A stretch of 64,000 nucleotides of DNA from Haliotis asinina (lineage: Eukaryota; Mollusca; Gastropoda; Lepetellida; Haliotidae), in contig NC_090281.1 of the NCBI RefSeq assembly GCF_037392515.1, positions 47,964,645-48,028,644 on the forward strand. Direction: 5' to 3'. The notes beneath the pieces were generated by a model. It was not told the DNA's origin, did not search any database, and saw only the letters and a list, made by a program, of their open reading frames with translations. Position 1 is the first letter of the stretch; each line of letters opens with the position of its first letter. The position numbers and the translations under genes are program-made. Shown here in pieces: positions 15,783 to 64,000 of the stretch.

Positions 15783-16414
15783 TTTGTTGATGATGATAAT
15801 GACGATGATGTTGATGTTGATGATGATGGTGATGGTGTTGGACAGTTGGGTTTTAGTCATGCTACAGGTGAGGCTTCCCATGCTAAACATACCTATGCTA
15901 ATTTTGTTTCTTCAAAGAAACGACCGACAGTAATTCGAATAAACATTTTGTTCTTGATGCATTAAAAAATAACTAAATATGTCATCTTCCGTTGGGGATA
16001 TGACCGCTGGTGGATAATTTTGAATGAAAAAGAACATTTATTTGACCTTTATGTACATGAGGACATTCTCATCCATCCCGTGCCTGCTGGCTGGTGAGGA
16101 CCTCTAACTAATCTGTTAACCTGATAATTGTTTCTGACGTACACAACCGTCATTGCAATTATTTAACAATTCACACATAATTGTTGGCTTGACCACGGAG
16201 CATGTTTAATACGAGGTCACCAACATTATCGCGGATGGATGCAACAACACCCCTTCCCCTTACTCCTCCCCCGCCGACTGTGACATCATCACTCTGACGC
16301 TCTGCATCAATAGGAACCACTAGCCAGCTGGAGATGGTGGAGTCAAAGCTTCTTACTACCCTACGTCACCACGCGGCATGAGGCCCCAACCAGCATCAGC
16401 ATCCAACAAGGCAT
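14986..16414. other. Upstream region of the GPCR gene; microsatellite only
   Basis: (CTG)n(ATG)n trinucleotide repeat at 15742-15840. A 101-codon minus-strand open frame (15577-15272) has no recognisable domain. No core promoter can be identified. Confidence 0.5.
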
Positions 16415-16850
16415 ATGCGATACATCCTCATCTTCAATATTCACCCTCCTAACAGCATGGACCAAGCTGCCAAAATGCCCAGCGAAAGTACAGACACTGA
16501 CACCGGTCTTCTGAAGAATTTCAGAGTCAAAATGTCCATAGATTTCCTACGGAACCTAAGCGCTTACAACGCCTCTGGAATCTATATTTTCAATGACAAT
16601 GAAGACGAGCCTATGATATTTACTCCCGAGACAAGAATCGTTCCGGTGTTGTTTCTTATTATTTTTGTTGTGGGACTTATTGGTAATAGTTTGCTAGTGT
16701 ACATCGTCGTCCGCCACGCCGCCATGCGCACTGTCACCAACTTGTACCTAGTGAACTTGTCTGTTGTGGATATTCTGTTTCTAGTAGCATGTGTTCCTCT
16801 CACCTCAGTTGCTTATGGAATTACCGACTGGCCGTTTGGAGATGGTTTAT
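16415..16850 (+). CDS. GPCR exon 1 (N-terminus to TM2 and first loop)
   Basis: It encodes the glycosylated N-terminus, TM1 and TM2, and ends inside the Cys146 codon at a GTGAGT donor. Two candidate starts lie 42 nt apart (16415, 16457). Confidence 0.9.
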
Positions 16851-43509: not shown

Positions 43510-44160
43510 GGAAGTATGATCTTCATCTCACAGCATGTTCCCGAGTTTCACATTGTGAATCTATGACAAACATTTCCTCGAAGTATTTGTATCACCACTA
43601 CTAAATGATCCACGAACACATTCCCGGTATTGTAACAGTAGAAATATAATGTCACAAAACAAAGTGATGACAACCATGAACTGATATTTAATAACCTACA
43701 ACCATCCCACAACTCAATCTTTCTCTAGGTGGCCTGTACCAAACTAGACATTCAACGTATGTTTTGTTGGTCTAGCCCTGTAGCAAACCAGACGCTCAGC
43801 GCCTACTTTTGTTGCCTTTACCCAGAGCGCTCTTTCTCTGTTTTGGTCCCGATACCACTGAGATATTGCCGTGGTGACTATAAATCTTAAGTCATCGGGA
43901 ACAAATTCCACTATATCTGCTTTCTGTAAACTGAAGCGGAGGTAAAATACCAGATCCCGATGGCGTGCAGGCTTGACGCTGAAAAGGGTCGTGAGACTTC
44001 ATGGAAACTGCAACGTTTGTTGCTATGGCAAGCGCAACAAGACGAGGTGGGGGGAAGTTTACCGATAAACGCCGGTGGGATGGTACCAGGAATACATGAT
44101 AATATTCAGCTAGCCCCCAAGTGAAAGTGCCAAAAGTTGATATCGTTGACGGGATATCGT
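43510..44160. other. No gene seen
   Basis: Unique sequence between two SINE-A copies; no domain recognised. Confidence 0.45.
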
Positions 44161-44169
44161 AGTAGAAGT

Positions 44170-44436
44170 GAGTGAGTGAGTGAGTTTAGTTTTACGTCGC
44201 ACTCAGCAATATTCTAGCTATATGGTGGCGGTCTGTAAATAATTGAGTCTGGAACAGACAATCCAGTGATCAACAACATGAGTATCGATCTGCGCATTTG
44301 GGAACCGATGACATGTGTCAACCAGATCAGCGACCCTGACCATCCGATCCCGTTAGTTGCCTCTTACGACCAACATATTCGCCTTTTATGGCAAGCATGG
44401 GTTGCTATTCTATACCCCGGGACCTTCGCGGGTCCA
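44170..44436 (-). repeat. SINE-A full-length copy with target-site duplication
   Basis: It runs from the GAGTGAGTGAGTG tail to the GGGACCTTCGCGGGTCC head. TAGTAGAAGT occurs on both sides (44160-44169 and 44437-44446), the expected 10-bp target duplication. About 25 bp of extra sequence sits near the head. Confidence 0.92.
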
Positions 44437-44574
44437 TAGTAGAAGTAAGCTAGTAAGCTCTTCACAAAGCGACTGGACTTGATATAATGTGAGATGGTAT
44501 AGCTTATTGCTTGTTTTTGTACAGACTTTAAAAACCTTCAGATTCAGTGCCATCCCGGTTGGTTTGTTGGTCAC

Positions 44575-44735
44575 CATTGTTCCAACCATATGGCGCCTCT
44601 CTGTAAATAACTGAGTCTGGACCAGACAGTCCAGTGATCGACACCATGAGCATCGATCTATGCAACTGGAATACAATGACTATCCGTTTACGACAAGCAT
44701 AGGCTACTGAAGACAAGTTATGTATCCTGGATCAG
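44575..44735 (-). repeat. SINE-A copy, 3' end lost
   Basis: GAGTCTGGACCAGACAGTCC, CATGAGCATCGATCTATGCA, GACAAGCATAGGCTACTGAA. Confidence 0.8.
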
Positions 44736-45104
44736 TTTACTCTGTTCTTGAAGATGTTATATATTGTAGAACAGTGTTCCAAGTGTAATCATTTTAAGGA
44801 TTGACAGTCGGTGAGGGGCAGCTGTGTGGGACATTTAGACTTAATTTAACCATTTTACCACCACTTAAAGCAATACATGCTGTACCTTGCAACACCTTAT
44901 GGAGGATACACTGGAATTTAAACTTGATACCCATATTAAAATTATCAAAAAAAGACAAACGTAAAAATCCATCATGTGTCCAAAGGACGTGAAACGTGAA
45001 GAACCATGTAAAGTAATGCCCGCTTTGCTATGTATACCACAAACAAAAAGTTTGGGAACAAATTAAATAATCGTACATAAACTTAAATGTGGGGATCTTA
45101 TTTA

Positions 45105-47385
45105 TACACTAAGGTAAATGCAACGACATGTTGGAACATACGGTGAGTGAGTGAGTGAGTTATTATTTAACGTCACGTCGGCAATATTGCAGCCATATTG
45201 TGACGAGAACGTACGTGACATAAAAAGGAATATATAGGCATATTATGAAGAACCTGTCGACGAAGACAGTAAAACCACTAGACTATCACAGTTAGTATTT
45301 AAAACTAGCGTAGAAACTTAAAAGTTAATATTATCACTATTGGGACAGTGATAAAAACAGGCTATAGATCGCCAACAACCGAAGGTAGATCACCATACTA
45401 GGGACCATGGGGACTTACAGTACCTCAGCTACCTGCATGGTCCCTACTTGGATTTACACCATCCCTTCAGCTGCTGGCGACTGTATGCAAGATTAGCCAC
45501 AATTTAAAATTACACATATTCTACGACTACAAAAGTGGAAGATTAAATCTGACTTCGACTGTTTTGGGGACTTACGTACCCTCTCAGGAGGACAATAATT
45601 TTACGGTACTTCAACACCCTTCGAGGATACAGCCACTAACAATCTTAGTTGCTAATTCAACTTCCAATCATAAAATATTTATCCATTTACAAGTCATGTA
45701 ACAGGTCTAATTCTTTTCAAAACGCAATGATTAAATGATAACGAACATTACTAAAAAGATCCTTCATAGTTCTTGATTTTAAAAAGTTATCCCTTGCGAT
45801 GGAATATTCAACACAGTCAAGCAAAACATGCTTGACTGTGATTCTGTCAGCACAAGGGCTACAAAACGGAGTATGTACGGTTTTATTTCATGTAATTTGT
45901 TCGTACCTACTTGCCTATCCCACCTCTTCTGCATCAGATCACGGATGTAAGACCTAATGATAGCTTTATAGTCAGTGTATGGAATAAGAAGTGGCGTCAC
46001 AGATTTGTTGAGTGCTGCTTTAGCAGCAAGGTCTGCCATTGTGTTACCAGAAATGCCTACGTGGCTTGGTAACCGACAAAAGACGATGTTGTATTGGCCA
46101 GTAGCAAGATTCTTATACAATTCAATAATATCAATTAAAAGTGGATGTTTACAAGAAATATTTTTAATAGCCTGAAGGCAAGGAAGAGAGTCGGAATAGA
46201 TTATATACTGTTTATGTTTAGGGTGTCTTTGGATATATTTAAGAGCTGTTAATATGGCGTTAGCTTCTGCAGTAAAAATACAGCTATTATCTGGTAAGCT
46301 ATAAGATATTGTTCAGGATCCAATGACAGTGGCACAAGCCACTGCGCCACCATCCTTGGACCCATCTGTAAATAAGAATTTATAATTGCTATATTTATGT
46401 TTCAATTGATTATATTCTTGTTTATATTGTAATTCATTTCTTTCTGATTTTTTAAATGTAGTTAATGTCAGGTCGACTTGTGGCCTAAACAATTGCCAAG
46501 GAGGAGAAGAAAGAAGACGGGAAGGAGCTATGTTTTCCAGCTCAGTGCTGGCAGCAGAAGTAAGTGGTTTTATTCTTAATCCAAGAGGCGGAACAGGGTC
46601 GCAACCCACGGCCAACAGGTTGGTGGACGAAATATCACAACGAGGGGTTGGCAAGCACTTAGCGTTACCCAGCACCCACCACGAGGAGGTGGCTTGCCAC
46701 GGCTGCCGGAACATACGGTAAAGTAAAGGATACAATATTCACTGAGTTTGAATGAAAACATTATCAAAACCCGTGAAAAATAAGGGTGCGGAAACAAACC
46801 AACTCGATGTTTGATTCAAACTCCGAAACTGTAGTGCATGTAGAAGACTGAGTTCCTATGCAGCTTGTTTCCCGCAAAAGAAGCTGCAGACAAAACTGAA
46901 GTCTCACAGCTTTTCATCATGGCATAGCTGAGACAGTTCAGCGCTCACAACAGAAACGGGGCCATTGCATGGTTCCAGGATGGTGAAGCCATAGTAAGTG
47001 TTGCTCGCTGTCGTCAGGTGTCTAAGGGGCAGGTTCCAGGCCACTTGTAGAGTACTGGACAGTAGAGCTCTGGAAGAGACAGAAAAACAACAATGGCCGA
47101 TTACCGATATGTTTTGCTCCAAGTCCACAGGAACCGATTCACAACTGACAGTGCCTAGTTGTTACAAGCTGCAGGAACGTCTGTATGCCACATGAACTTC
47201 GATGTTTTGTTCCGGAGTTTGAATCAAACAAGCACCCTTGTTTTTCGCTGTTTGACAGTGTTTCATTTTAGTCAAACTAAATGAATATTTAATCAGTTGC
47301 TTCACTGCATGTTCCAACATGTCGTTTAAAGTGTCCATTACGCACACAAACAGTCGCATTTACCATACAGTATATATGACCTCGC
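45105..47385. mobile_element. TIR foldback element interrupted by a LINE
   Basis: Left terminal repeat 45105-45144 plus 46720-46800, right terminal repeat about 47215-47385. The arms share CGACATGTTGGAACAT, TAGTTTGA and AAGGGTGC, and both have GGTAAATGC further out. A 1563-bp LINE sits in the left arm. Without it the element is about 0.7 kb and non-coding. Confidence 0.7.
45145..46707 (-). mobile_element. 5'-truncated I-group LINE with RNase H domain
   Basis: Read on the minus strand, it gives the ORF2 end: YKFLFTDGSKDGGAVACATV (first RNase H Asp), FTAEANAILTALKYI, YSDSLPCLQAI and FCRLPSHVGISGNTMADLAA, then a zinc-knuckle-like CSPCADRITVKHVLLDCVEY. There is one in-frame TGA near the start of the RNase H part and one deletion/frameshift near 45860. 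It ends in (ACTC)n. GGAACATACGGT flanks it on both sides (45133-45144, 46708-46719). The domain order fits the I/Nimb group. Confidence 0.85.
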
Positions 47386-47594
47386 CATGTCTAAGTTTAT
47401 ACACTAGCTACATAAAGAAACTGTGCATTGTCAAAATATTAGCCCAGTTGATAAGTACGATACCAATGTCAAAGGTACATGTAAACGTTAATGGAGGGAT
47501 CATGAGACCATAACAAGTCAGGGGAGTTTCAATTGGACAATCAATCACAATGACGTCACGAGTCCACAATCGGGACAGGAGTCAAACGACCATG

Positions 47595-47880
47595 CCCAAA
47601 GCTCAACAACGGGTATGTCCTCCATCGGCATTGCCATTGCATCGACGACACATAGAGCCTTTCAAACGTGCAAGGAAGGCTTGTGAGATGTCAGTTAAGT
47701 TGCCCTGAACAATCACCAAAGGAGCTCTTTGGAGTGCTGTTATTTCACCCCACATCATCACGGAATCATCACCAAAGCAATTCCTCTCCAAGACACAGAC
47801 TTGTGCATAACATTCTCCCACGCACGTTGACGTCCATCGTTATGGGAAATGTTGAATCTGGACTCATCTCTAAAAAGATA
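47595..47880 (-). mobile_element. Tc1-like transposase fragment
   Basis: Minus-strand reading gives DESRFNISHNDGRQRAW, then VLERNCFGDDSVMMWGEITA and PLVIVQGNLT, the DDE core of Tc1-like transposases (the second Asp region). Stops interrupt it and both ends are missing. Confidence 0.75.
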
Positions 47881-48237
47881 CAGCATTGCACCACACCTCA
47901 TTTAACTATAGAAATTTAATGGCGACAATGTATTTTAGTGTCTTGAAGACTTGAACTCATTCCTACTACTTTCTGGCATTGATAACAAAACAATAGTGAA
48001 ACAGTTGTCTTTGTTTTCTAGTCAGCTTTGCCTAAACAAAAGTTAAAGTTCCCCCAAATCTGTATTGTGTATTATTCACGTCTATTAACGTGTTTATGCT
48101 GGCGACATGGATAAACGCCAGTTGGCACCATTTTGATGGAATGACTCACTCGGCGGGCTTCACGCAACAGAAAACAAAATCACGAAAACACCAACCCAAG
48201 TTAATTGATGAAATATAAAAGCATCCTGGATTATTCG

Positions 48238-48375
48238 TCGTGCCTAGTGTTTAAAGCGTTCACGCGTCAAGCCACTTGTCACATGGATACACTGCATGAG
48301 GTCCATTTCTGCTTTCCCCGTCGTGATATTGATGGAATATTGCTAAAAGCGGCGTAAAACTAAATTCACTCACTA
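48238..48375 (+). repeat. SINE-B copy
   Basis: GTGCCTAGTGTTTAAAGCGT, CCATTTCTGCTTTCCCCGTC, GAATATTGCTAAAAGCGGCG and a TAAATTCACTCAC tail. Confidence 0.85.
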
Positions 48376-48379
48376 TCTT

Positions 48380-49085
48380 TCCACAACCACGGTCAACCAC
48401 GGTCAACCACGGTCAGTGTTTCATGGTGGAATATATAGAGAATATAATATGAGTGCCCATGTCATACAATGTTTATGACACAAGTTCCTAAATGTTGATA
48501 TTTCCCGAGCGAGAACAAGGAATATGCCGATATTTAGACACGACTGTCGTAAAGCTAGTATGATTGGGCACTAAGATGATATTCTGTTTATCACCGAAGC
48601 CGTAAGATTGGAGAAAATACACCCAAACTGAATGACAGAAATGACTGATGTTTTTTTTTTCCTGCTTCGATGTGTACCATATGTTCCTTATGTTTTATTG
48701 TTGTCATGAAATCATGACTGTGTATTGATTCACACATACATACATATTGCTTTAGCAAAATATGGAAAACGCGAGAGTCCATTATATTTAGCGGCAATTG
48801 ATCTATGTGAAACGGTGAAAGTGGGCGCAAGACTTTCATCTACACAATTTCGTGGGTCTTTTGTGATAATTTGCAAGCTCTGAGAGTAACACAATGACAT
48901 TTGTTGTGGAAGCTGAATATTTATTGAGCTGTTTTCTGACACAGTAAACCGGCTGTTACATGTTATATCAATAACATGACCACGTAGGTACCCATGCTGT
49001 TGCATTGTATGGTATTAATTTAAACTGTATTCCTTTTGGCAGGGGAGCTTCATATGAGAGGAAAGGTGTACATGTCCTAGAGGTT
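48380..49085. other. No gene seen
   Basis: A short CAACCACGGT triplication at 48378-48412; otherwise unique DNA with no domain. Confidence 0.5.
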
Positions 49086-49089
49086 TACG

Positions 49090-49265
49090 AGTAAAGATCG
49101 GACCCGTGACGCTTCGGTTTGGAGGAAGGAATTGGTTTTCAGCGACCAATGTTTGTCCCAAGATCGGGATCGGGTCGTCAGGCCCGTTGACTTGGTTGGC
49201 ACCCATTTGCACAAAACGATGCTCATGCGCTTCATCACTGGATTGACTGACCTAAACTAGACTTT
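49090..49265 (+). repeat. SINE-A copy, diverged, tail lost
   Basis: TTTTCAGCGACCAATGTTTG, GATCGGGTCGTCAGGCCCGT, TTGACTTGGTTGGCACCC. Confidence 0.75.
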
Positions 49266-50222
49266 TTTTAAAGATCGCTGAGACATAGCTATCTATTCTG
49301 TCGCCAGGTGTCAGTTAAACAACAAACAAATGAAACTAGAGAACGGGTGTAGTGGTGTCAGACTTAAAAACGTAATGTGGACTGGGATTCGAACTCACAA
49401 TTGTAGGTGTTTGGCTCGCCCAGGGAGTCAACTGCCCTGTTCACGTATCAAGAAATAGCGTTGAAATCTGTTAGTGACTTGTGGCTTCTCCATCGTCTTA
49501 TTTCGTCCGTTCGTTCGTTCATATTTTGTTGTTTGTATATATTGGTTATACACTGTACATACTACACAATCTACATCCGTGTTCTCTGTCATAGGCAATT
49601 TATAATGCACACGGGTTAACGAACATCTGTTCATGAACGTCATCATCATTTAGCTTTATACGACCGGGTGTCCCCTAAACAGTGAACCGGTTTTGACTCG
49701 CATTTTCTCAATGAATTTAGTTTCTCTCCCGCTGAGAAAATACTTGTCGTAAAACGGTTCACACCTGATAACTATTGGTTGTAGTTACGCGTAGAAACCG
49801 ATTTCACCGAGCGTGTAAAGAAAATTGAACACTGTACAGATGTTTGTTAACCCACAAACATCCCCCACCCAATCTGCGCCTGGGTGGCCTGTATACAACC
49901 CAAATATTCATTTTGGCATGATTTTTCCAGAACTTTCTCTCATCGAATGAGGTGTAACATAATTCGACCGTCCGAAGGGCAGTCCAAGTTGGATAAATAC
50001 AACACGCAGAAAACCAACATAGTAAAAAAAACCAAGTAATCAATCCTTTAACGAGGTCACCTTCTTCGATCTCTGTATTCGATTCAATCAGTACCCTTGC
50101 ACTTTTTCAATTTTGCCGAGGTAGCAGATGTCAACCTCTCCTTGCGCATAAATTATGGTATAAGTAACAAATGGGTCTCAAGTTCAGACACATGCAACAT
50201 AACATCATTTTGATTCTCACAA

Positions 50223-50388
50223 ATGCCCCGTAAACTAGTTTTACTTGTAGGTAGCCTGACTGCCTTTACAGCTATATACCTGTCTGTTGCCATGCTTACA
50301 ACTCCTTGGAACGTATGGGATCGTGGAGGGATAGAGACACGGACACACGCCACATTCCTAGGTACTGTAGCTGTGATCCTTTCAAACA
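50223..50388 (+). CDS. Candidate signal-anchor exon of the GalNAc-T gene
   Basis: ATG at 50223 opens MPRKLVLLVGSLTAFTAIYL, a short basic tail followed by one hydrophobic span and then a polar stem. This is the type II membrane layout of Golgi GalNAc-transferases, and the segment lies 0.9 kb upstream of the first catalytic exon in the same orientation. The frame stays open to 50432. The end given is a guess near the best donor (TAG|GTACTG, about 50362), whose phase does not match the acceptor at 51323, so a further stem exon may exist or this may not belong to the gene. Confidence 0.4.
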
Positions 50389-50576
50389 CTCATTACATGT
50401 CCTTGTGGCGAAATGTTATGGGTGATGAATGAATATTTGTGATACAATCTAACATTGAAAAATTGTATGAGATTTCGAAATTAATCTGAATTCTTTGTTC
50501 TTCCAAAATGTGTGTGAATACGAGGCGGTTGGCAAGGACAAGAATACCTTGTACACATATTCGTATTAACAGGTAC

Positions 50577-50733
50577 TGTGTGAGTCTGTTTTACGCCGCT
50601 TTTAGCAATATTCCAGCTATTTCACGACAGGGGACACCAGAAATGGGTTTCCCACATTGCATCCATGTGGAAATCGAACCAGGGTCTTCTGTGTGACGGG
50701 CCAACGGTCTAATCACTAGGCTACCTCAGCGTC
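50577..50733 (-). repeat. SINE-B copy upstream of the first GalNAc-T catalytic exon
   Basis: GTGTGAGTCTGTTTTACGCC, TTTTAGCAATATTCCAGC, GACACCAGAAATGGG, GTGGAAATCGAACCAGGGTC, CTAATCACTAGGCTACC. Confidence 0.88.
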
Positions 50734-51322
50734 TCCTTAGAAAGTAACATAACATGTGATATAGATATTACTAACTGGTATTTGAAAATAGCTGTGTGCT
50801 AACGGCAGTCATCTAAAGGAAGAACGCGTGTGTATGTAGTTCGTAATTCTAAACACACCGTATAGTTTGCCTGTACCGATGACAGTTAGGTGACACACTC
50901 CAGCCGATCACTATTTGTGTACGTGAATTTCATCTCCGCGTTCCATGTGCACGTTCACGAGCATCCAGATTGGCGCTGATCCTAGGGGAACCCGCGTTTG
51001 TTGTACGAGCTAACAAGTAGGATCTCTTGATCGCATTCCCCTTTTGTATGGACTGATGCTCTGCAACTTGATTGCTTGGTCCATCCCTGATTACCTTCAG
51101 AAAATCGAAATGAAGGTTGATAACTGCTGAGGGCATTCTTTAATAGCAAACAAAGAAGCCTCACTATTCATGATAAGAATGATAAGAAAGACAATGATAG
51201 ACAAGGAAAATTGCTTCACGCATAAAGCGTTACCCAATACATATCATTCTATTGTAAATTAGCCCTTTAACAGTTTGGCGCAAATCAATACAAATCAATC
51301 AAATATTTTGGCGACTTTTCAG

Positions 51323-51943
51323 AATACAATCTTGGAAGACAACAGATCAGCAGCTATCTGGTTCCGACCTTCCTTCAAACAAAAGTCTGTCACGTCTGAA
51401 CGATCTTCTTCATAAAATCACTAAAAATCATTACCTTCCGAATGATACCTATTTTGGTTACAACGTTTCCGTGAGCGACAAGTTACCGCTGTATAGAAAC
51501 TTAAGTGATAAACGACACTCCAAATGCCGTGACATAAAATATAATTTCACGGGTGAATTGACTGTGTCTGTTATCATTCCATTCTATAACGAAGCATTGA
51601 CGCCCTTACTACGCCATGTGCATACACTACTACACCGAACACCTTCATACTTGTTGAAAGAAATACTACTGGTAGACGACAGAAGCACATTTTCGTATTT
51701 AGGAGCCGATTTAGATCGTTATTTTGAAATACTGGACAAGAGAATAAGGATACTTCGAAACAAAAAGCGAGAAGGTTTGATAAGGACCAGAATGAACGGT
51801 GCCAGAGAGGCCAGGGGAGATGTTCTTGTGTTCCTGGATGCACACATGGAAGTTGGCGTGGCATGGCTGGAGCCCCTCCTGGAACGAATAGTCAATCAAC
51901 CACAAATTGTTGTTCAACCCGATATACCTGATATAAAATACGG
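51323..51943 (+). CDS. GalNAc-T catalytic exon (GT-A half, DAH motif)
   Basis: Acceptor TTTTCAG, donor GG|GTAAGT. The first 50 residues look like stem. VIIPFYNEA through GLIRTRMNGAREARGDVLVF and DAHMEV are diagnostic of GalNAc-T. The frame is open upstream to a stop near 51255 without an ATG, so an upstream exon must exist. Confidence 0.9.
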
Positions 51944-53944
51944 GTAAGTTCAAGATCCTAACAATTGTTTGCTCAATTTACTTTATAGCATATAAATATA
52001 GGTATCGCGGTGCATCCGTGGGAGATATTTTAAAATGATGAAACTTGATTCTTACAGAGAGTTATCCTGGGGAATATCAGGAACCTTTTAATTGGATGGC
52101 AAATGGGTTTTAGGTTGATTGAGCTATGAAAATGTTTTGGTTTATTAATTTGGTAGTATCGGTAAGGATAGATACCACTGTAAAACAACATGTGAAGGTG
52201 TCAGTAGAGTAGATTATGTCATCTCTTCACCAAACACATTGCCCTTATTTAATGATTTTCATATTGAGGAATTTTGTCCAGTGTTATCTGATGTACATGC
52301 ACCAATCCCTTTCAGCCTATATACATCAGATGGTCATAATACAAACCTGTCATAATTATATCCCTGATTATAGCAACACTCACAGCAAAAATAAGCTGGT
52401 TTCCGGAACACTGAAACCGAGAAGAAACGTCATGGAAACCAACATTTCCAGTTGGTTTCCAGGGAGTTTCCTATAGTTTCATTGTGGTTTCCATGCAACT
52501 GAAACTGCACCATTTCAGGATGGTTTCCAGTTCGTTTCATTACCCACTCCTCCAAGCGGGATCCAGTTGGTTTCCATGTACGAGTTTATTGTAGGTTTCA
52601 ACCTGGTTTCCATGTATGATTTTTTTGTAGGTTTCAACCTGGTTTCCATGTATGAGTTTATTTTAAATGAACACTTATGGTCATCTGTATCAAAATTGCC
52701 TCCATTTTATGTGGAATATTTTAACTTGGGACTTTAATATAAACTAGAACCTTGCCGGACGCATGGCTTACTGGCAAAAATTAAACCTATCTATAAGAAA
52801 ACAGGAAATCGTATGGACCCAAGTTCATATAGGCCGATCTCCACCTTGAGCTGCTTTGGCAAACTTTTTACAAGTATCATTAATGAGAGACTGAATAAAT
52901 GTTGTGATGATAATGACATTGTCTACAACAGACAATGTATTTGTTATTCATAATCTGATAAATCGTATGAAAAGGTGCAAAAGAAAACGCTTTTGTGCTT
53001 TTATCGATTTTTTACAAGTATTTGATAGAGACTGGAAAATTGGGCTGTGGACCAAACTAAGTCAAACTGATATCAAGGGTAAAATTCTGACTTTAATTCA
53101 AAACTATGTATAAGGACATAAAATCATGCGTTATGGTAGATTCTCGAAGATCAGATTTCTTTGATTGCCTGTCAGGAGTTAGACAAGGAGAAAACCTGTC
53201 CACTCTCTCATTCTCCATTTTTCAAAATGACCTAAAATCCCACCTAATGGAACAGTCTTGTGTTGGTGTTCAACTGGAAACAAATGATGATCATTCGATG
53301 AAGGTTTAAATATTAGCTCTGAAACAGTCGTGTCGTGGTAAAAAATAGAAGTTGTTATTCATAATGTAGTCATGCGGTCGTATTCGTCCAAACTTAAAAT
53401 GTCTTTAAAGAACTGCACCAAAGCCATAATAGTGTACCAGCATTATCACATTTTCCCTTCACTTGTTCTTCTTTTCAGACATCCAAAAACAAATCAGCAT
53501 TCAGTTGTCTGTGACGAATCTGACAAGGAGGAATATATCTCAAGACCTGGCATGTCTTCGGAACTGAGGTAATCAAATTAATTAGTAATCAAAATAATTG
53601 TATCAAAGAATAAATAGAAGGTGAAATCCAATACATTCTTCGTTTTCATCCAAAAGTATCTTCTAAAAATCCAATCAAGGATCTAGTTTACATGTTGTTA
53701 TAACAAGTGATATACATCAAGAGACGAAAGTATGTGACTGAATGACAGGTTGATAGTGTACGAGCATTATCACATTTTTCAATCACTTGTTCTTCTTTTC
53801 AGACATCCAAAAACAAATCAGCATTCAGTTGTCAATGACAAGTCTGACGAGGAGGAATATATCCCAAGACCTGGCATGTCTTGGCAACTGAGGTAAATTA
53901 CACTATTAGAAACCAAAATAAGCAGAGATGGTAACGATAAACAC

Positions 53945-54023
<79 letters not shown>

Positions 54024-57000
54024 GAGGGGGATTTGGGGGGTAGGGAGGGGGAGGCGGTAGTTTTGAAAATCTTGCTGATGATCGGTCCTACACTTATCTT
54101 GGAATGCAAGTTCAAGAACTCCATAATGTCCAGACTCAAGACAAACTTAAGGCTGGCAACCTGGAGCTCAGAGCTATTGCTTCAAATAAGATCAAAGTTA
54201 ATCCTTCCCTATTCTTTTTAGTAGATGATTGGACAAACAAGTCTTGATATTTTAGTGAATGCAATTGAGAAGTGACAGAGACTTCCAACACCTTGCCGAT
54301 GGTTGGCACAAACGATATATCTTAAATTACAAGATGGCATAGTTTCGACAACGCTCGTTTCATATAAGGTGACTCCGAGGTCGCATCCATGGAATTCCTT
54401 GCTTCATATGCACCACCAAAGCATCATCTGATGAAATAATATGTGCAAAAGTACACAAGAAAAGTCTCTCATGAAGAAAAACAACCTTTCCGAATTGGGA
54501 TATATAATGACAGTCACTTCCGAATTGTATTTGCTAAAGTACCATTCTCGTGGAATGTCGGTTGTGCAATAAGACTTCAGTGGATGTCACAAACAGCATA
54601 TATTTAATGACATGATACCACAGCTTCAATAACCCTCTTTCCAGCCATGTGGCGTAGACTCCGCGATTCATGGTACAAGCTTAAACATGTCCATGACTTC
54701 ATGAAAATGATGCTTTTAAATTTCTTTGGAATGAGCTCATATACAGCTTAGGTAGAATTCATGCCAACTGATAATATTTGTTCCTGTTTTTTTGTAGCCA
54801 GTGATTACATTTATGAAACTGCCTGTCCCCTTTAACTTTTGTGATTGGCACGATTCAGGAAAAGCGTGCTGCTGAATGCTGACTTCGTCTTTGAATCTTT
54901 GCATCCTAAGTACACTATCGTCCTGCTCCCATTACCCCAGCTACCGGACGCAACAACCATGTACTGATGAAAGTACAAATGAAACAATGTCTGAAAATGG
55001 CATTGAGTAACATTTTTTATTAAGGTTTTATTTTATCGTCAAATCGTCAAATCGGCAAAATTTCAGCCATACCGTCACGGGAACAATCATTTATAATTTG
55101 TTTACAATAAAACCGTACCGATGAATTTCACTTTAAACAAACATTGTATACAGACTAGAGTGAAATTTAGATTGCGAATCCTCATAATGTTACCTTGTTA
55201 GTTGAACAAGTAAATGTCAAAATTTTAGTCATTGTAGGATAAAAGTTGTTAAACAAACGATCATAGTGTCACATCCCTTCTATTGCTCTTTATTGCAAAG
55301 GGGTTTGCACATTCAGTGAAATACCAAGAACAAGTCGGATTGGTCTCAATTAACGCTCACCCTAGCTAGATGAAATCACACCTTCATGCACTGTTCATTG
55401 TTTAACAAAATAGCCATACATTTTAAGAACAAACTAAAACAAACTTAGTAGTAGCATTTGGGTAGCTTGGCACACCCACACCACGTACCTAAAATTTGCC
55501 ATCTGTAAAGATCCGGGTTAGAATTGGTCTTCAGCAACCGTCTTTGTGACTAACGGGATCGTGTGTTCAGATTCGCTGACTTGGTTGACACATGCCATGG
55601 CATCCCATTTGCGTAGATCGGTGATCATGACGTTGACCACTGAATGATCTGTTCTAGACGCGAAAAGTTACAGACCGTTAGTATTGAGATGGAATATAAA
55701 CAACATACTAAACAACCTGAGACTCGCCGATTCTTATTCCTTGCAATCCCGTCTCTTTTGTTCTTGTGGTGTTTGTGTGTGTCTGTGTGTGTGTGTGTGT
55801 GTCTCTGTGTGTGTGTGTGTTTTCTCTGTGTGTGTCTGTGTGTGTGTGTGTGTCTGTGTTGGCGTGGGAGAAAGGGTGTGTGGTGGGGGAGGTCTTTACA
55901 CGGTTTGTTGCTAATGAAGTCGTGAATGGGCTGCTCTTCAAGCATGATCGCAAGTATTAGTGTGGTCTGATGTAGCGCTCAGGTGTAATATCACAATTTT
56001 GTAAATTGCAGGGATAGCCGCTTTCAAACTGTTCCGTTATTATTCGTCGCATATTCATATCTCTGACCATTATCCAAAGACTAAATACCCTGGGCCCTCT
56101 TGCACAGAGCAGTCTTAGTTACAATCAATCTTAGGCCCCTACAATCAACTTTACAATCATCGTACAATTGCCCTAATCCACTTGCACAAAGACGATCTTA
56201 AGACAGCATGGGCTTAAGATCGCAATCTTAACTAAGATCGAACTCTTCAACGTTGGAGGTAAAACTTTCTTAAACTCGACTCCTGTCTACAGTTGTCTTC
56301 AAGTGCGCAAAGAATGCAGCGCAAGTAAAACGTGGAACTGGTTACTGCACGCACCTGACATTCCTGCCTTAACCGCACCTTGCAGATTTTTCATAAAAAC
56401 AAAACAAAAAAAACAAAAAAAACAACAAAAACAACAACAACAACAAAAAAACAAAGCAAAAAACAAGCAAAAACACCCCACAAATCTTTGTAATGATAAC
56501 GTGGAAGATAACATATATGGTACCTCGTACCTCGTGGGCTATTCTCTAATTTTTCTACATTCTAATATTATTTATGAACTAAGAATGTCATACTGCAACC
56601 ACAGAAATATCACGTTTTATGATAAAATATTGAAATACAAACAAGTACATTAACAAATTTGGGTTTTGAGTTACTGACCTAGTACTCATGAAAATTAAAA
56701 GATAACATAAATTATAAACAAAATGTCCTTATGATACAACACCTAATTTACCATGATTTGTCAATGGCTGTCAATGAGTCTGTGTTTGGCATCTGGTTGG
56801 TGTTATTTGGAGTAAAATCCCAAATATATCCCACAAGCATTAGATGTGTAAAGATATGAAAGTGTGACATGAAAGTGGGAGTGATGAGGAAAATGCATGA
56901 CAGGGAAATATGAAAACGTTATTATTCAGTGTGTCTTGTATGTGTTGTTAAATACTTATCTAAAGTATGTTAACTGCGTTACGCTATTTTGTTGATAATT

Positions 57001-59202
57001 ATTTTTTCTTTTTGTCAAAAACCTTTTTACGCAAATTTCACATGCCTCAGCAAGTGTATTTTGAAGAATACTTCAAATTGTATTATATTTAAAATGCATA
57101 GATTAAAACTCTATTCTCTCGTCAGAAAGAAACATAAATTTGTACGTTAACCAACTGTAGATTATTGACACGTCTATGATCGAAAAGAAATATATGTGGA
57201 GATCTGTGCTGTCACAATATAACATACACTGTATTTGGGCATGGCAGATTTTACAGCAGCGGTATAAAACGCAAAGGGAAACCACTCCCATCTTGCGTGA
57301 AAATCAAGATTAGCTGCCCTTGAGTTATTGCAAAGATCATGGCCACTGCTAATCGCATGCAGACACCTTTCGTTACTATCCTTTCCTTGTTTATCAAAAA
57401 GGTATGGTGTTCATACTTTTTCCAACACTGAATCGGGTGAGAATTGTACTCAATGATATGGACTCGATAATGATGTTGTTCACTTCCGCAAATAGCGATA
57501 TTTCTGACGTTAAATCGATGTTCCATTCTCCGTGTCGTTGAAGTGTCGAGGCGAATCATACAGTTTTATGCAATATAAAAGCAATCCCCAAACGTAAAGC
57601 TAATTATTTGCGTGAAATTGACACCAGCTTGGACGCCATTTTGCTACTGACAACAATGATCTTAGCTCCTTACAATTGGTTCCGACCAATTGTAAGTTTT
57701 GATTGTAACTTACAATGATCCTACCCTACAATAGCTTTGTGCAAGTGGATTGCGATTGTGACCGAAGCCTCAGATCGCGATCTTAAGGATTTACAATAAT
57801 TGTAGCTCTAAGATTGCACTATGCAAGTGGGCCCTGAAGTAGGTACAATTCCTAAAGTTTAAAATCATTGGTTGATGTGTTCTGGAATAATTTTCTTTCA
57901 ACTTTCAAAATATCTAAATATCTACAAATCAAAACATCAATTTTCAAACATCGGTTTTTGACTGAAGGTTTCAAAATTACCAAAAGCGCAATGTAACGAA
58001 CTTGATGATGTACTGAATATAATGATTTTAGACTTGTAAATGTTATTGAAGAAATAATTTTCTCTCCAAATGCCATCGTATACTTCATTTAACCTCTGCG
58101 CTACATTTCGGACAAGATCATATCTTCAAATCATTCACATATATTGATGGGATTAAACTATCACGTCAACACCCGACAATGGAAATGTAAATTTAAATGT
58201 AAATGTAAATCTACTAATGATTTTCATCTTTCCAGCCAGAATTGGTTTCCGTTCCCACCCTACCTCTACCAAGTTGGCTTTCACCAAACTAATGCCTTTC
58301 CATCACCAGCACTACAAGGATCGGCAATTGTGGTTCGTAGGTCTTACTTCATGAGTATCAGAGGCTTTGATGAAGGACTGAACATCTGGGGAGGCGAGCA
58401 GCTGGAATTGGCTTTGAAAGTTTGGATGACAGGAGGACGAGTTGAGACAGTTCCATGCTCTATCGTTGGCCATGTTTTTAAAGATAATCCGAATGTTAAA
58501 ACACAAAAGGAAGATGATGTACTTACCAAGAATGTTTTACATATTGCTGAAATATGGATGGATGAATACGCAGACTTTGTGATTGCAAATTGTAGAGCTG
58601 AATCTCATAATGGACACTTGCCAACTTTTACGTCAAAAGAAGATGAATCGATTCACGAGGGAAGGATTTTCAGGGACCGAATGGGGAGCAAGAGCTTTAA
58701 ATGGTATCTCGATCATGTATTTCCGGAACTACAAATCCCATCAAGGGAAGATCTATTGTGGGGAGAAATCATGAAGGATAACGAGTGTCTTTTTGTCGTG
58801 GATGATGCCTTTGTTGCTCTTGGCAATGTGTGCGAGTCATACGGAATTTCATTTAGAACAATTTTTTCTCTCGACAAATGGGGCAGACTTCGTAGCAATG
58901 GCCAGTGTTTGGGCTTGGATGAACACACTAGGAACATTGTCACGATCCCGTGTTACAAAGAGGATATGGCTGAAGCTGCTGGTGAATGGGACTACACAGA
59001 ACACGATCAGTTGATGTATCGAAGTCCCAGTGGAACATACTGCTTAGGTTATGTTGAGTCAGAGGAAGCCGTTAAAATGGAAGCCTGCAAACCTACAAAT
59101 GAGCAGCAGCCATGGTCCTTTCAGATACAGTTTGAATGGGAATCAGGAACTGAAGAGCTAGATTCGAAATTAAAGGGTAAAGACATTGATTTTCGATTTT
59201 GA
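51323..59202 (+). CDS. Polypeptide N-acetylgalactosaminyltransferase (GalNAc-T), partial 5'
   Basis: This enzyme transfers GalNAc from UDP-GalNAc to Ser/Thr in the Golgi, starting mucin-type O-glycans. Exon 51323-51943 encodes SDKLPLYRNLSDKRH, VSVIIPFYNEA, EILLVDD and the metal-binding DAH (51837-51845), then WLEPLLERI. Exon 58236-59202 encodes the WGGE motif (58387-58398), VGHVF with a metal His, AEIWMDEY, FKWYLDHVFPEL, and a ricin B-type lectin domain (about 58860-59150) ending in a natural stop. Between them lie two alternative 90-nt exons with matching phase (53479-53568, 53803-53892); one is needed to supply the part of the catalytic domain before NWFPFPP. All exons enter and leave in phase 2. 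Key catalytic residues are present, so the enzyme is probably active. Which of the roughly 20 family members it is cannot be told here. Confidence 0.93.
52569..52665. repeat. 36-bp tandem repeat in GalNAc-T intron
   Basis: GGTTTCCATGTA(T/C)GAGTTTA followed by TTGTAGGTTTCAACCT, three copies at exact 36-bp spacing; diverged GGTTTCC pieces extend left to 52380. Confidence 0.8.
52740..53430 (+). mobile_element. LINE reverse-transcriptase relic
   Basis: NRMDPSSYRPISTLSCFGKL (one frame), FCAFIDFLQVFDRDWKIGLW and LSGVRQGENLSTLSFSIFQN are RT palm motifs of a non-LTR element. Several frame changes; not functional. It ends just before the first alternative GalNAc-T exon. A weak possible continuation (SYTYLGMQV-like thumb) lies near 54075. 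Confidence 0.75.
53479..53568 (+). CDS. GalNAc-T alternative exon, copy A (90 nt)
   Basis: Acceptor TCTTCTTTTCAG, donor GAG|GTAATC, phase 2 at both ends. It encodes HPKTNQHSVVCDESDKEEY then ISRPGMSSEL. Joined to the next exon (SQNWFPFPP) it aligns with the GGFxWxLxFxWxPxP stretch of the family. A near-identical copy follows 324 bp downstream. In this copy the usually conserved Trp is Ser. Confidence 0.7.
53803..53892 (+). CDS. GalNAc-T alternative exon, copy B (90 nt)
   Basis: Same length, phase and acceptor as copy A; donor GAG|GTAAAT. It encodes HPKTNQHSVVNDKSDEEEY then IPRPGMSWQL. The Trp in GMSW fits the family's GGFDW/GGFNW motif, so this copy is closer to the standard enzyme. Eight base differences from copy A fall in six codons, and all six change the residue. 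Confidence 0.72.
53946..54055. repeat. (TG)n(GA)n microsatellite
   Basis: About 28 TG units, then GAGAGA and a G-rich stretch, just past alternative exon copy B. Confidence 0.95.
55018..55110 (-). repeat. LINE 3'-end fragment
   Basis: TCGTCAAATCGGCAAAATTT and CAGCCATACCGTCACGGGAA resemble the 3' end of the LINE at 45150-45230 (AACGTCACGTCGGCAATATT, CAGCCATATTGTGACGAGAA). Confidence 0.5.
55504..55695 (+). repeat. SINE-A copy in GalNAc-T intron
   Basis: AAGATCCGGGTTAGAATTGG, GTCTTCAGCAACCGTCTTTG, TTGACTTGGTTGACACATGC-type core; the 3' end is diverged. Confidence 0.8.
55766..55865. repeat. (TG)n/(TCTGTG)n microsatellite
   Basis: 100 bp of TG repeats broken by TCTG steps. Confidence 0.9.
56092..57834. 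mobile_element. DNA transposon with GGGCCC(A/T)CTTGCA termini, copy 2 (1743 bp)
   Basis: Left end GGGCCCTCTTGCACAGAGCA, right end complement GGGCCCACTTGCATAGTGCA. Subterminal copies of the end motif (CCACTTGCACAAAGACGATC at 56179, CTTTGTGCAAGTGG near 57736) also face each other. It lies in the last intron of GalNAc-T. A 102-codon minus-strand frame (57559-57251) has no recognisable domain. Confidence 0.75.
58236..59202 (+). CDS. GalNAc-T last exon (WGGE motif and lectin domain)
   Basis: Acceptor CATCTTTCCAG with a TACTAAT branch-point-like motif at 58212-58218. It encodes FDEGLNIWGGEQLELALKVW, VPCSIVGHVFKDNP and the C-terminal beta-trefoil lectin domain with CLGL and QQPW motifs. The stop at 59200 fits the family's length. 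Confidence 0.95.
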
Positions 59203-59684
59203 TATGCACCCTTCTTGACGATCGTAATAATAGATATAACATCCAACCGACGGGACAGAATATCAAAGGGAAGGGCCCATAAACATTAAATCAAAGACCA
59301 CCCGACCAGGAGCATAGGGGTGGAGCAGGAAAGCAAACATAATTCACGATATGTTCAATGAATACAATTGAAACTATGCATCGTAAGGCTGAGGACATCT
59401 ATTTCTAAATTCTGTCTATCTCTGAATAGGTCAACATATCTGAACTTCATATTTACCATTGTCATGGCAGACAGCGGACTGATAGACGGATGGACAGAGA
59501 GACTGACTCGAATCTTAGAAGTGGCCAAAAAAATACGTTCGTGGGGTCGAAGATAAAACAGCACATGATTAGGTGAAAATTCTCTTCACAGAAACGGTAA
59601 ACCCAAATTCTAAAAGATATCCTCAAGTAATCATTTGCTTAATAGTGGTGTTTGTTATCGACACCGAAACATCACACTCATTAC

Positions 59685-59690
59685 AATAAA
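59685..59690 (+). terminator. Putative poly(A) signal of GalNAc-T
   Basis: AATAAA 483 bp downstream of the stop, followed by an A-run. It is the first canonical hexamer after the gene. Confidence 0.4.
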
Positions 59691-59789
59691 AAAGTTGACG
59701 ATTGAACTTGGTTTTCCTCCCATGAATTTGGTGAGCTAAAAATCAGTTGTGAAAACTAATTATCTTAGTGAATTCTGATCAGTCAGGTA

Positions 59790-60340
59790 TCAGCGATATG
59801 ACTAGGCATTCACCTACATTGTTAGATATGAGCTTTGAGGGATATACGTACAAACTGATCAAGAGAAAACAAGAATATATTTCCAGGTACTGCATTGTCA
59901 AGAACTGTGGATCAACAGCTACAGCATCGAATGACATCATCACATTGGTTGGCAATACCCACAAGCACCCATATTTAAGGTACATATGGTATCCTACAAG
60001 TATTATGAAATCATATATATTTGAATATGAATACATTGTACCATATCCTATAAGAACGTGTGAATATAAACCATTTGATTATGATGATGTTTTTGGTTAA
60101 GGCAACAGAGGTTCTGAAGAACAAATATGAGACGATTGTCAAGCCATCTCTCGAGCCAGTGCCATCACTTTCGATCAACAAGATGAGAGGAGATCTAGCA
60201 GTGTCTGCAATGCCATCGAATGACACCCCGGGTGTTCAAACAATTGACAATGAAAATTGCAGAAATGTGTATTTTTCCCTTGCCTCTGAAATTTGTGAAA
60301 ACCATGTTAATTTCAACCTAAACTTACCCGTGAAGGTTCC
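59790..60340 (+). pseudogene. FLYWCH-type zinc-finger segment, in two pieces
   Basis: The first piece (about 59790-59979) reads MSFEGYTYKLIKRKQ, then RYCIVKNC and THKHPYL. This is the aromatic-rich, C-x4-C ... H-x-H layout of FLYWCH zinc fingers (RYC where WRC is usual). It ends at AAG|GTACAT. The second piece (about 60102-60340, ATEVLKNKYETIV ... GDLAVSAMPSND) resembles the helical stretch after the finger in FLYWCH and MULE-associated proteins. The donor phase (2) does not match an AAG|GCA acceptor (phase 0), so it is either a decayed MULE-derived copy or a gene whose exons I have not joined correctly. SINE-A follows at once. Confidence 0.4.
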
Positions 60341-60573
60341 CGGGTAGAATAGGCCTTCAGCAACCCATGCTTGCCATAACAGGCGACTAACGGGATTGAG
60401 TGGTCAGCATTGCTGACTTGGTTGACACATGTCATCGGTTCCCAATTGCGCAGATCAATACTCATGTTGTTGATCACTGGATTGTCTGGTCCAGACTCGA
60501 TTATTTACAGACCGCCGCCATATAGCTGGAATAATGCTGAGTGCGGCGTAAAACTAAACTCACTCACTCACTC
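60328..60573 (+). repeat. SINE-A full-length copy
   Basis: It runs from CCGTGAAGGTTCCCGGGTAG through GTCTGGTCCAGACTCGATTA to GCGGCGTAAAACTAAACTCA and (CTCA)n. It is the best-preserved copy here and close to what I take as consensus. Confidence 0.92.
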
Positions 60574-60574
60574 T

Positions 60575-61260
60575 AAAGAACAAGGAGATCTGTCCAGCCC
60601 CAACTTCCAACAAGCAGACAAGATCCTGTAATACCGCCAGAATTCCAGACAACAGGGACAGATCAGATTTTGTTTAGTCTGTACTTTATCAGGCGATAGT
60701 TTGCATTTTCGCATTACGTCACAACTTGGCATCACTGCGCAATTCTTGTCTGCCACAAGGCCGTCATCGAACAAATTTGTACGACATCACAATGTAAACT
60801 GACTTCAGTACGCATGTCAGTTGTATCGCTGCATATAGCCGTCTCCAGCAAACTACTCCATTGCATGCCGTTTCTGGTTTGCAGCTGCGTCACTCACCTA
60901 ATATCACTGGTGGAAACATTACGCTTTTCCGACGGATAGTATGTCTCATAGTTCGAGTCAATAATTTTACAGTGACACGGTAACGTTTGCAATGTTTACG
61001 TTCAAACATACGCAGGATTCTTAATTTAGGAAGTATGGAATATAGCATCTCAGAAAAGAAATACAGTTCGCTCTACCACCATGGATAGTTATTATGCACG
61101 CACACTTTCGCCCTGAACTATTATAGTTAAGGACGAGTATGCTTATGAAAGTGTGCTTTGTTTCACTATAAATGGTGTAGCGCGAACTGCATGTCTTCAT
61201 TTAAGTAGTCTTAAATCAACGACAAAGGACGGCAAAATTGAAAACTGAGTAATTGTTACT
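60575..61260. other. No gene seen
   Basis: Unique DNA; no domain recognised on either strand. Confidence 0.45.
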
Positions 61261-61525
61261 TGCTTGGATGCGATCAAATGATATCTCCTAGGATTTTGTA
61301 CATTTGCACAATTTTGTACATCACTGAACTGTCTAATGGCAGCACCTTTTTCAGAGATGTATAGTGTATTTTCACTGAAAACTTGAGAAGAGTGATTTTT
61401 GATGGTAAATAGAATCCCTATCCTAATGTCTTCGGAAGTCAAATACATCAGCACTCGTTGATAAAGATAAAACTAAATTATAAGACATGATATCCAAAGA
61501 CACTTGAGTGAGATTATTTATAGCC
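61261..61525. mobile_element. Foldback dispersed repeat, copy 2
   Basis: Shares CTAATGGCAG(C/T)ACC, TTCAGAGATGTA and GATGGTAAATAGAATC-type stretches with 14151-14490, including the inverted end (GACACTTGAGTGAGATT). 47 kb separates the two copies. Confidence 0.6.
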
Positions 61526-62682
61526 CTTTGAGTTCGCAATATCTGTAGCTGACGCCACACGAAATTAAAGCCTAGATGCAATCAAAAGTGAAACATAATT
61601 AAAAAACAGTTATCATTTATTCATGACACATAATATACATTGCTGATTATGATAAAAATATAAGTGTATAATCACAAATCAAAAGTGAGAAATGTTTTGT
61701 ACTTGGGTTTACTACCCTCGAAATGAAGCACCCGATATGCCGAACCTAGTCAGAATGGGTCGGCGTGTAGGTAAGGGAAACGAAAACTTTCATTGACTGG
61801 TTTGTTTGCGGATACACTCAAGGCTCTTTGTTTATGGTGTATAGCTTGACAGGTGTTAAGTTCAAACTGCATATGCTCTATGACTGAAGTTGTGTATTGC
61901 ATATTATCATTACCAAGACAGACACACAGGTGTTAAAAAACAGACATTGAGTTCTGTCTGTGACAGATGCTGATTACCACAATGAACATGTTCTTTTTCT
62001 GTGTCTCCATGTACATGAATTAAAATATTGGAGTTTTCAAACTAAGTAGTTTCTAACAATAAAATTAGTACAGTTAGAAATATTGACAATGCTATGTAAA
62101 CACTTTGCTGTTTACTATGGAACTGAGAAAATGACTTGGTAAGAAGAACGTGTGGTGAAATACTAGTGCATGTAGTCAAATGAAATTATATTAACAGTTA
62201 AATCGGTAATCTACTGTCATCATGTAGGAAAAGCTTGTGCATGTGAAATATCAACAAAATCGCCTCCTCCCAGTATTCACCGAAGGTTTGTTGACACATA
62301 GCTGAGTAGATGTAGATCCTTAGCAGGGTTATTTCATGTAACGAGTAGATTATTTACTATTTGTTGTTTGTGTACACTACCCTACCATTGCTCACGACTT
62401 TATAATCTGGGAATCCCGCTTCAAGCTCCGCAAACCTATTTGCGCAATGCCGCTATTGAAACAACTTTTCATCCCAGCCAGGGTGAAATTGGTGAATCGT
62501 TTCTGATTTCGAGGTTCATTTTTCAACTTTATAAGTTGAATTTGCATTTTTGATAACTTGTTACTGCAAGTTCACACCAAAAGGTATCAGACTCTGCAGA
62601 GTTGTGTTTTACGTTACATGTAAGGTTATGTTTAGAAATCAAAAGATAAATTCAGTGCAGTGTCGATAGGCCGTGTGTAGAT
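61526..62682. other. No gene supported
   Basis: AT-rich sequence downstream of the lectin exon; may include its 3' UTR. A 61-codon plus-strand frame at 62368 shows no domain. Confidence 0.4.
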
Positions 62683-62897
62683 CTAGCGTTTAACAGGAGC
62701 TTCACAAAAGAACCCTGCTTAACCACTGCAGTTGGCATCATCCCATCTATACTGTCTGTCTCTCCATCGATAGGACAAACAACAGTTTGCAGGCCATCCA
62801 TCCGTCCTGCTGTTCTGCCAGTAGAACTTGACAATGGGTGTTCCGTCAAACCAGATCCAGTTGATCTTCCCCTTGCCTCCAATGCACACTGAACGCT
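62683..62897 (-). pseudogene. 3' exon of a C-type lectin-like domain with in-frame stop
   Basis: After an ATTTTTCAG acceptor the minus strand reads RSVCIGGKGKINWIWFDGTP, then FYWQNSRTDGWPANCC, then WDDANCSG. These match the WIWSDGTP, CV and WNDxxC landmarks of the C-type lectin fold. TAA (62721-62719) follows NCSG; beyond it the same frame gives AGFFCEAPVKR and TAG (62685), which is the normal end of the domain (FxCE). Either the copy is broken by one nonsense change, or the protein ends early and loses the last disulfide Cys. Upstream exons would lie to the right and were not found in the window. Confidence 0.6.
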
Positions 62898-62907
62898 CTG
62901 AAAAATA

Positions 62908-63125
62908 TGGTTAGTTCTCAACAATATATCAGCTATATGGCGACTGTCTGCGTATACTCGAGTTTGGAACATACAGTCCACTGACAAGCAAGAAGAGCAT
63001 CTATCTGTGGAACTGGGATACAATGAAATGTGTCAAGCCTGATCTTATGACAAGACGTCTCTTACGTCTCTTACGACAAGCACGAGTTACTGAAGATCCA
63101 TAATGATTCTAAATCACATCTTCAC
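62908..63125 (-). repeat. SINE-A copy, diverged, next to the lectin exon
   Basis: CTCAACAATATATCAGCTAT, CTGTGGAACTGGGATACAAT, CTTACGACAAGCACGAGTTA; no ACTC tail. Confidence 0.75.
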
Positions 63126-63825
63126 ATGTTTATCGAGAAACGAAGTGATCTATTGATATCTGAAGGCTTGGAAACCGAGGGTAACATGAGCATCACTGTG
63201 CATTTTCCTCTTGTTTCAAATGACGCTATTTAGGGTGGACAGTTTCAGCAAGGGAACATGGGGATTAATAAGTAATTATAAAATAAATCAATCTTCTAAT
63301 TTTCCTTACATTTTTCAGTCACAATTCTGTTTGGAATTGCATTTTCTATACATGTCCAGCACGACATTAGTTGTTCATACATATTTTCATACTTTTGAAA
63401 CCCATCAATTCATTACATGTGATAACAAATTTGATGCGATAATCATTTGAAAGTCCATGGTACCTATTCTACAGGTTGCAGTGGAATTTATGAATTTGGT
63501 ATAAGGTTTCGGGAATTACACACGCCTTGTGTGCGTGCGGGTAGCATTCTGAATATTTTTACTGGCAATATATGATAGTTTTCTTGAAAGTGTATGGTTC
63601 CAATTAGTAAATGAAAATATAGCCAAATGACTCACTGAATAGAGAGCATTCATATTGATCTTTTATACAGTTGTCACATTTGGATAAGTAATTCTTAAAA
63701 TTCTCGACATTTCATCAGAACAGTTTTGGTTGTTTCATCTCAAAGTTTGGTTACATTTTGGAGATAGTTATGAAAGATTATTACTACTGAAATTACTGGG
63801 AGAGAGGTAAGCTGTATATACGATT

Positions 63826-63914
63826 GGGGTACGAGACCACATTTGACAAAAAGTCTCTGTAAAGCTTGATCTCACATTTTCAGAGACTTTTTGTCAAACG
63901 TGGTCTCGTACCCC
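63826..63914. repeat. Near-perfect 34-bp hairpin, 21-nt loop
   Basis: Arms 63826-63859 and 63881-63914 differ at one base out of 34 (an A-C pair on the plus strand, a G-U wobble on the minus strand). Confidence 0.92.
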
Positions 63915-64000
63915 CATACTATTTACTACTGACTTATGCCGGGGGTCGACACTCCCTTCAAACAATTATATCTAGATAAGTATGTACAGATACATGCATG

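Follow-up and report, generated by a model that had tools for sequence, protein, structure and literature searches.

The window analysed here, a stretch of 64,000 nucleotides of Haliotis asinina corresponding to C2:47964645-48028644 of the 1.14-Gb genome, carries a gene for a GalNAc-transferase in which one exon of the catalytic domain, exon 3, is present as two tandem copies, A and B (Table 1). The hallmarks of family GT27 were observed in this gene, namely a GT-A fold with the DxH metal motif, WGGE and GHV(F/I), together with a C-terminal ricin-type lectin domain. An N-terminal membrane anchor might be provided by candidate exon 1, which is in phase in the window gene; in the neighbouring gene copy described below, the corresponding candidate (L005, C2:48115730-48115875) has 7 additional nt and does not join exon 2 in phase. 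For three Haliotis species, the annotated proteins start within exon 2, at an internal Met. Exon 4 shares 94% amino acid identity with the predicted H. asinina protein P0001, and exon 2 is 98.5% identical to the neighbouring copy over 667 nt. The motifs, phases and reading frames support the proposal of the first-pass annotation that this is a GalNAc-transferase gene with a tandemly duplicated catalytic-domain exon of phase 2/2, as predicted from the genome sequence. The tail of the window gene (59145-59202) adds 18 residues beyond the C-terminus FEWES common to P0001 and the H. rubra protein P0002, and it differs from the neighbouring gene by a one-base indel.

Table 1. Features of the GalNAc-transferase gene and its duplicated exon (positions in the window unless marked C2)
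Feature	Positions	Strand	Remarks
Candidate exon 1 (start codon, membrane-anchor-like hydrophobic stretch), weak assignment	50223..50361	+	phase 1, in-frame join to exon 2
Exon 2: first part of GT-A catalytic domain, DAH (DxH) motif	51274..51943	+	start inferred from phase
Duplicated unit enclosing copy A	53429..53597	+	88.8% identical to 53753-53921
Exon 3, copy A (GMSSEL; Trp to Ser)	53479..53568	+	from sequence; counterpart A2 = C2:48119136-48119225
Duplicated unit enclosing copy B	53753..53921	+	upstream part absent in window gene, present in neighbour
Exon 3, copy B (GMSWQL; conserved Trp), probable working copy	53803..53892	+	counterpart B2 = C2:48119881-48119970
Exon 4: remaining catalytic domain (QNW, WGGE, GHVF), ricin-type lectin domain, stop	58236..59202	+	

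Several other features were seen in the window. Exons with rhodopsin-type receptor domains are found at 16382-16867 and 24940-25803, the latter matching an allatostatin-A receptor-like protein of H. cracherodii at 94%. An RNase H-like remnant, probably of a retroelement, lies on the reverse strand at 45782-46312 (PF00075 above cut-off). Upstream of exon A, weak reverse-transcriptase-like pieces occur at 52795-52920 and 53112-53255 (RVT_1 below the curated cut-off), and a possible further reverse transcriptase part, recognised by eye and with no Pfam match, follows exon B at 54044-54247; exons A and B sit between these pieces.

The two copies of exon 3 are 90-nt blocks lying 324 nt from start to start, each with its own acceptor TCTTCTTTTCAG and donor GAG|GT, and their phases fit those of the exon that ends at 51943 and the one that starts at 58236, as had been described. 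Of the 90 bases, 8 differ between the copies; they fall in six codons, and all six codon changes alter the residue (C/N, E/K, K/E, S/P, S/W and E/Q), with the translations confirming Trp in B and Ser in A. All splice forms are in frame and reach the common stop, giving 621 residues with A, 621 with B, 591 with neither and 651 with both, the last being the third form foreseen in the first-pass annotation. The donors match the splice donor consensus CAGGTAAGT at 6 of 9 positions in A and 7 of 9 in B. Within the window, the units enclosing A and B match with an E value of 3.5e-58, and this similarity is therefore not due to chance. No third copy of the unit was detected by blastn in the 64-kb window, and searches of the genome in which the A unit or the B unit served as query, and which score only the best candidates, gave four matches each, consisting of the window pair and the pair of the neighbouring gene. 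A different exon elsewhere in the intron might have supplied the GGFxW segment; the 12 Haliotis proteins used as queries revealed no other such exon in the window at E 0.01. Among the features by which tandem exons are recognised, A and B are adjacent, homologous, of similar length and equal phase, and have conserved splice sites; the key structural residues, however, are not retained in both copies. Such retention is typical of annotated human tandem exon events (PMC9741552) and is no strict requirement.

A second copy of the gene lies about 101 kb downstream of the window gene and likewise contains the exon pair (A2 and B2), each copy having an open frame and intact splice sites. The copies differ by 9% and 16% within the two pairs. 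The predicted protein P0001 is 100% identical over residues 81-384 to C2:48122425-48123336, and it is thus the protein of the neighbouring gene; the exon used in it is B2. The P0001 cluster has two members, and the annotated protein of the window gene itself may therefore be inside this cluster. The duplicated unit has 14 informative sites, and every one of them groups A with A2 and B with B2, indicating that the exon was duplicated first and the gene later. The duplicated unit of the neighbour spans at least 307 bp (48118948-48119254 and 48119703-48119999), and about 422 bp between its exons, including part of this unit, are absent in the window gene. Both genes belong to a segmental duplication of about 18 kb that includes the whole GalNAc-transferase gene (window 44866-62624 and C2:48110873-48128186), the ends of which are not fixed by the comparison of 44000-64000 with 48105500-48130000; the duplicates are on the same strand, about 101 kb apart, and are broken by unmatched stretches. 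The aligned intron windows of the two gene copies differ by about 5%.

At the position of the copy-B Trp, the 120 homologs listed of 1941 found have Trp in 118 cases, Phe in 2 and Ser in none. Both A and A2 have Ser at this near-invariant position, and copy A is clearly without a residue kept by nearly all listed relatives. In the chain numbering of GalNAc-T2, GGFDW corresponds to residues 272-276, which makes the exon-3 Trp equivalent to Trp276. Its identification with Trp282 was considered and rejected: in the GalNAc-T4 alignment the exon-3 Trp falls at 280 and the next Trp at 286, and GalNAc-T4 Trp286 is the counterpart of GalNAc-T2 Trp282 (PMC5716993). The T2 chain numbering also speaks against this identification, with Trp282 matching the QNW Trp of exon 4. 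The Trp282 Ala mutant of GalNAc-T2 is reported to lose activity almost completely (PMC4432651), and since exon 3 carries Trp276 and not Trp282, this result provides no argument against copy A. The term Trp276 occurs in neither of the two papers listed in a literature search for it; the conservation of Trp276 suggests that this residue is important to the enzyme. The peptide contacts reported for GalNAc-T2 include Leu270, Phe280, Trp282 and Tyr284 (PMC4432651). The Leu270 position, the only one of these contacts in exon 3, is Ser in A and Pro in B under an ungapped reading, a match that is uncertain because the HMMER alignment with GalNAc-T4 has a gap at this position, whereas Phe280, Trp282 and Tyr284 map to exon 4, which is common to the A and B forms. 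Four of the six residue changes lie in the loop, predicted to be flexible (pLDDT 58 and 52 for residues 51-60 and 61-70 of P0001), and two are charge reversals (E/K and K/E).

Which of the two copies is constrained was addressed by several comparisons. First, H. rubra and H. rufescens have the same residue at 15 positions of the exon; A departs from it at 3 (N, D and W) and A2 at 5 (N, D, P, S and W), and B departs at 2 (E and D) and B2 at 3 (K, E and D); the RPGMSW block is broken only in the A type, A and A2, and is kept in B and B2. Including the H. asinina protein among the references leaves 12 positions; A breaks 2 of them and B none, a count biased to B since this added reference is B2 itself. 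The overall identity does not separate A from B, as A and B share 19 and 18 residues with H. rubra and 13 and 15 with H. rufescens, respectively. A protein search with the copy-A segment only gave a single match, P0001, which has B2, and no protein containing A was among the matches. Second, in the two comparisons of A with B units, the exon diverges at 10/90 and 14/90 positions and the duplicated intron at 22/159 each time (p about 0.7), the 50 bases immediately upstream of the exon being excluded from the intron count. In these comparisons the exon has no gap openings, versus 9 and 8 in 205 aligned flank bases, a hint of frame upkeep. Third, between the two genes, the flanks differ at 2/79 positions for A and 10/76 for B, with introns at about 5%, and the pN/pS values are 0.008/0.044 for exon 2, 0.027/0.046 for the first part of exon 4, 0.055/0.096 for A and 0.055/0.05 for B. 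The equal pN indicates that A overall is no faster than B, and exon 3 seems to be fast-evolving in both copies, at a borderline level (Fisher p about 0.06 each versus exons 2 and 4 combined). A rough neutral simulation at the intron rate, taken from 42 of 60 windows (18 were dropped because they overlapped or adjoined exons, were misaligned or contained a microsatellite), left both A and A2 intact in about 12% of runs. The comparison of dN and dS between the copies, which the first-pass annotation had proposed, yields 7 non-synonymous substitutions over 72.9 sites and 1 synonymous substitution over 20.1 sites, but with p 0.68 it is not decisive. Taken alone, only 1 of 8 changes between A and B is silent; with 8 random changes, the frame stayed open in 68-70% of runs, and about 15% of those had residue-changing codons only, so that eight changes are too few to decide on selection. 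Neither selective constraint on A nor a lack of it follows from these comparisons.

The GxW segment was also found in 9 of 10 further H. asinina GalNAc-transferase stretches on C2, the tenth (L036) giving partial matches only. In all nine paralogs, two of which (P0005 and P0011) are already in the list of 120 homologs, the segment forms one piece with the exon before it, shares its end junction with exon 3, and contains the Trp. A loose motif search, which a strongly diverged copy could escape, revealed no second GxW copy in the context of these nine paralogs, and two matches that it gave, in L035 and L040, look like chance. Intron 51944-53478, which contains the weak reverse-transcriptase-like pieces upstream of exon A, is absent in the nine paralogs and, among the genes read, therefore seems special to the window gene and its neighbour. 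In the simplest reading of these sequences, this intron seems to have been gained in the lineage of this H. asinina gene.

Herein, we favour, with a probability of about one half, the explanation that B is the working exon and A a drifting spare that is mostly skipped or used at a low level, so that the gene makes mainly one enzyme, with B. In the H. asinina lineage, the exon that encodes the conserved GxW strand together with a variable loop was duplicated in tandem, and a later duplication of the whole gene placed a second set of both exon copies about 101 kb away. B and B2 would supply the catalytic segment, and A and A2 have kept an open frame and good splice sites and lost residues of the working exon. 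A would then most likely be skipped or included at a low level, and we infer that it is mostly absent from mRNA. The conservation of the Trp, the departures of A and A2, an exon divergence equal to that of the intron, the use of B2 in P0001 and the donor scores support this explanation. Counting against it, A and A2 are open and free of indels with intact splice sites, the flanks of A are well kept, A and B have equal pN, and A is as close as B to H. rubra.

The main rival, which we consider unlikely, is that both exons are included, with B joining exon 4 and providing the Trp and A forming a 30-residue extension of a flexible loop. Since A comes first and B lies next to exon 4, A would be freed from keeping its own Trp, and this arrangement would account for the indel-free open frame together with the loss of Trp in A and A2. 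The frame of the 651-residue form, the 234-nt intron between the exons, which is long enough for splicing, and the predicted flexibility of the loop are all compatible with co-inclusion; however, the annotated protein of the neighbour has B2 only, and the copy-A segment search found no A-containing protein.

Mutually exclusive use of the exons, giving an active enzyme with B and a catalytically impaired form with A that might act as a lectin only or dampen activity, appears rather doubtful. The homology of A and B, their equal length and phase and similar splice sites are the kind of criteria used for predicting mutually exclusive exons (PMC3228551), and both copies have been retained through the gene duplication with the same Trp to Ser change in A and A2; tandem exon substitutions are also annotated in GALNT13, Pgant5 and gly-5 (PMC9741552). 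However, no mechanism enforcing such a choice was found, as double inclusion causes no frameshift and the intron is not too short. Pairing of RNA as an enforcing mechanism was rejected, since exon B and the intron share no antisense match longer than 11 nt, a length that was reached in 44 of 300 shuffles. Moreover, PMC9741552 describes tandem duplication as common and mutually exclusive splicing of the copies as not, and the most important residues as being kept. A tentative extension, which we also hold to be unlikely, is that the gained intron isolated the GxW segment as a 30-residue cassette, the duplicate of which, retained through the later gene duplication, would let splicing switch between an active form and a form without the Trp whose transferase activity is altered or absent.

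Among the functional readings, the earlier proposal of two working enzymes that differ in acceptor preference has the least support, and we consider it improbable. The Ser/Pro difference at the uncertainly matched Leu270 position and the clustering of changes in the loop with two charge reversals would fit such a switch, but A and A2 lack the near-invariant Trp276 found in 118 of 120 homologs, A2 has two more losses in the block, and the main contacts, Phe280, Trp282 and Tyr284, are in exon 4 and common to both forms. A spurious local duplication in the assembly, a general possibility only, is very improbable, as a single 102-Mb contig contains the pair at two places, all 14 informative sites agree in their relationships, and the copies within pairs differ by 9% and 16%.

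If A is expressed, the locus would provide a natural case in which a GalNAc-transferase loses a near-invariant aromatic residue next to its acceptor site, with splicing making this loss optional, and part of the enzyme core would have become an exchangeable cassette through a newly gained intron. If A is not expressed, the pair would be a clear case of a duplicated exon that has kept its frame and splice sites and lost conserved residues, and a warning against calling mutually exclusive exons by sequence alone.

Among the papers listed in literature searches on GalNAc-transferase splicing (20 of 75, 3 of 3 and 8 of 4,419), no report of the abalone exon pair was found, and of the 14 papers given by the search combining Haliotis and N-acetylgalactosaminyltransferase, none had either term in its title or abstract or was a report of the pair. 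Tandem exon swaps are known in the GalNAc-transferase genes pgant5, gly-5 and GALNT13, and the kind is thus not new; the statement in the first-pass annotation that no catalytic exon swap of this kind was known is superseded by pgant5 (preprint PMC12776162) and by GALNT13, Pgant5 and gly-5 (PMC9741552). As in Drosophila pgant5, a segment of the GalNAc-transferase catalytic domain would be alternatively encoded. In pgant5 A/B, alternative splicing of residues 398-457 (a flexible gating loop, helix I-turn-helix II) alters peptide preference, and both forms are reported to be expressed and active (PMC12776162); in contrast, the abalone segment comprises the GxW strand and loop, lies further upstream, has one copy without the Trp and is known from genome sequence. 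GALNT13, Pgant5 and gly-5 likewise have tandem duplicated homologous exons, with repeated origin in animals (PMC9741552), but these are annotated splice events, whereas the abalone pair is predicted, and the likeness to GALNT13 and gly-5 is one of kind. In Drosophila pgant9 A/B, the exon variants 8A and 8B are described as tuning the substrate preference of the GalNAc-transferase; exon 8 there encodes the alpha subdomain of the lectin domain, whereas the abalone exon belongs to the catalytic domain (PMC6115407).
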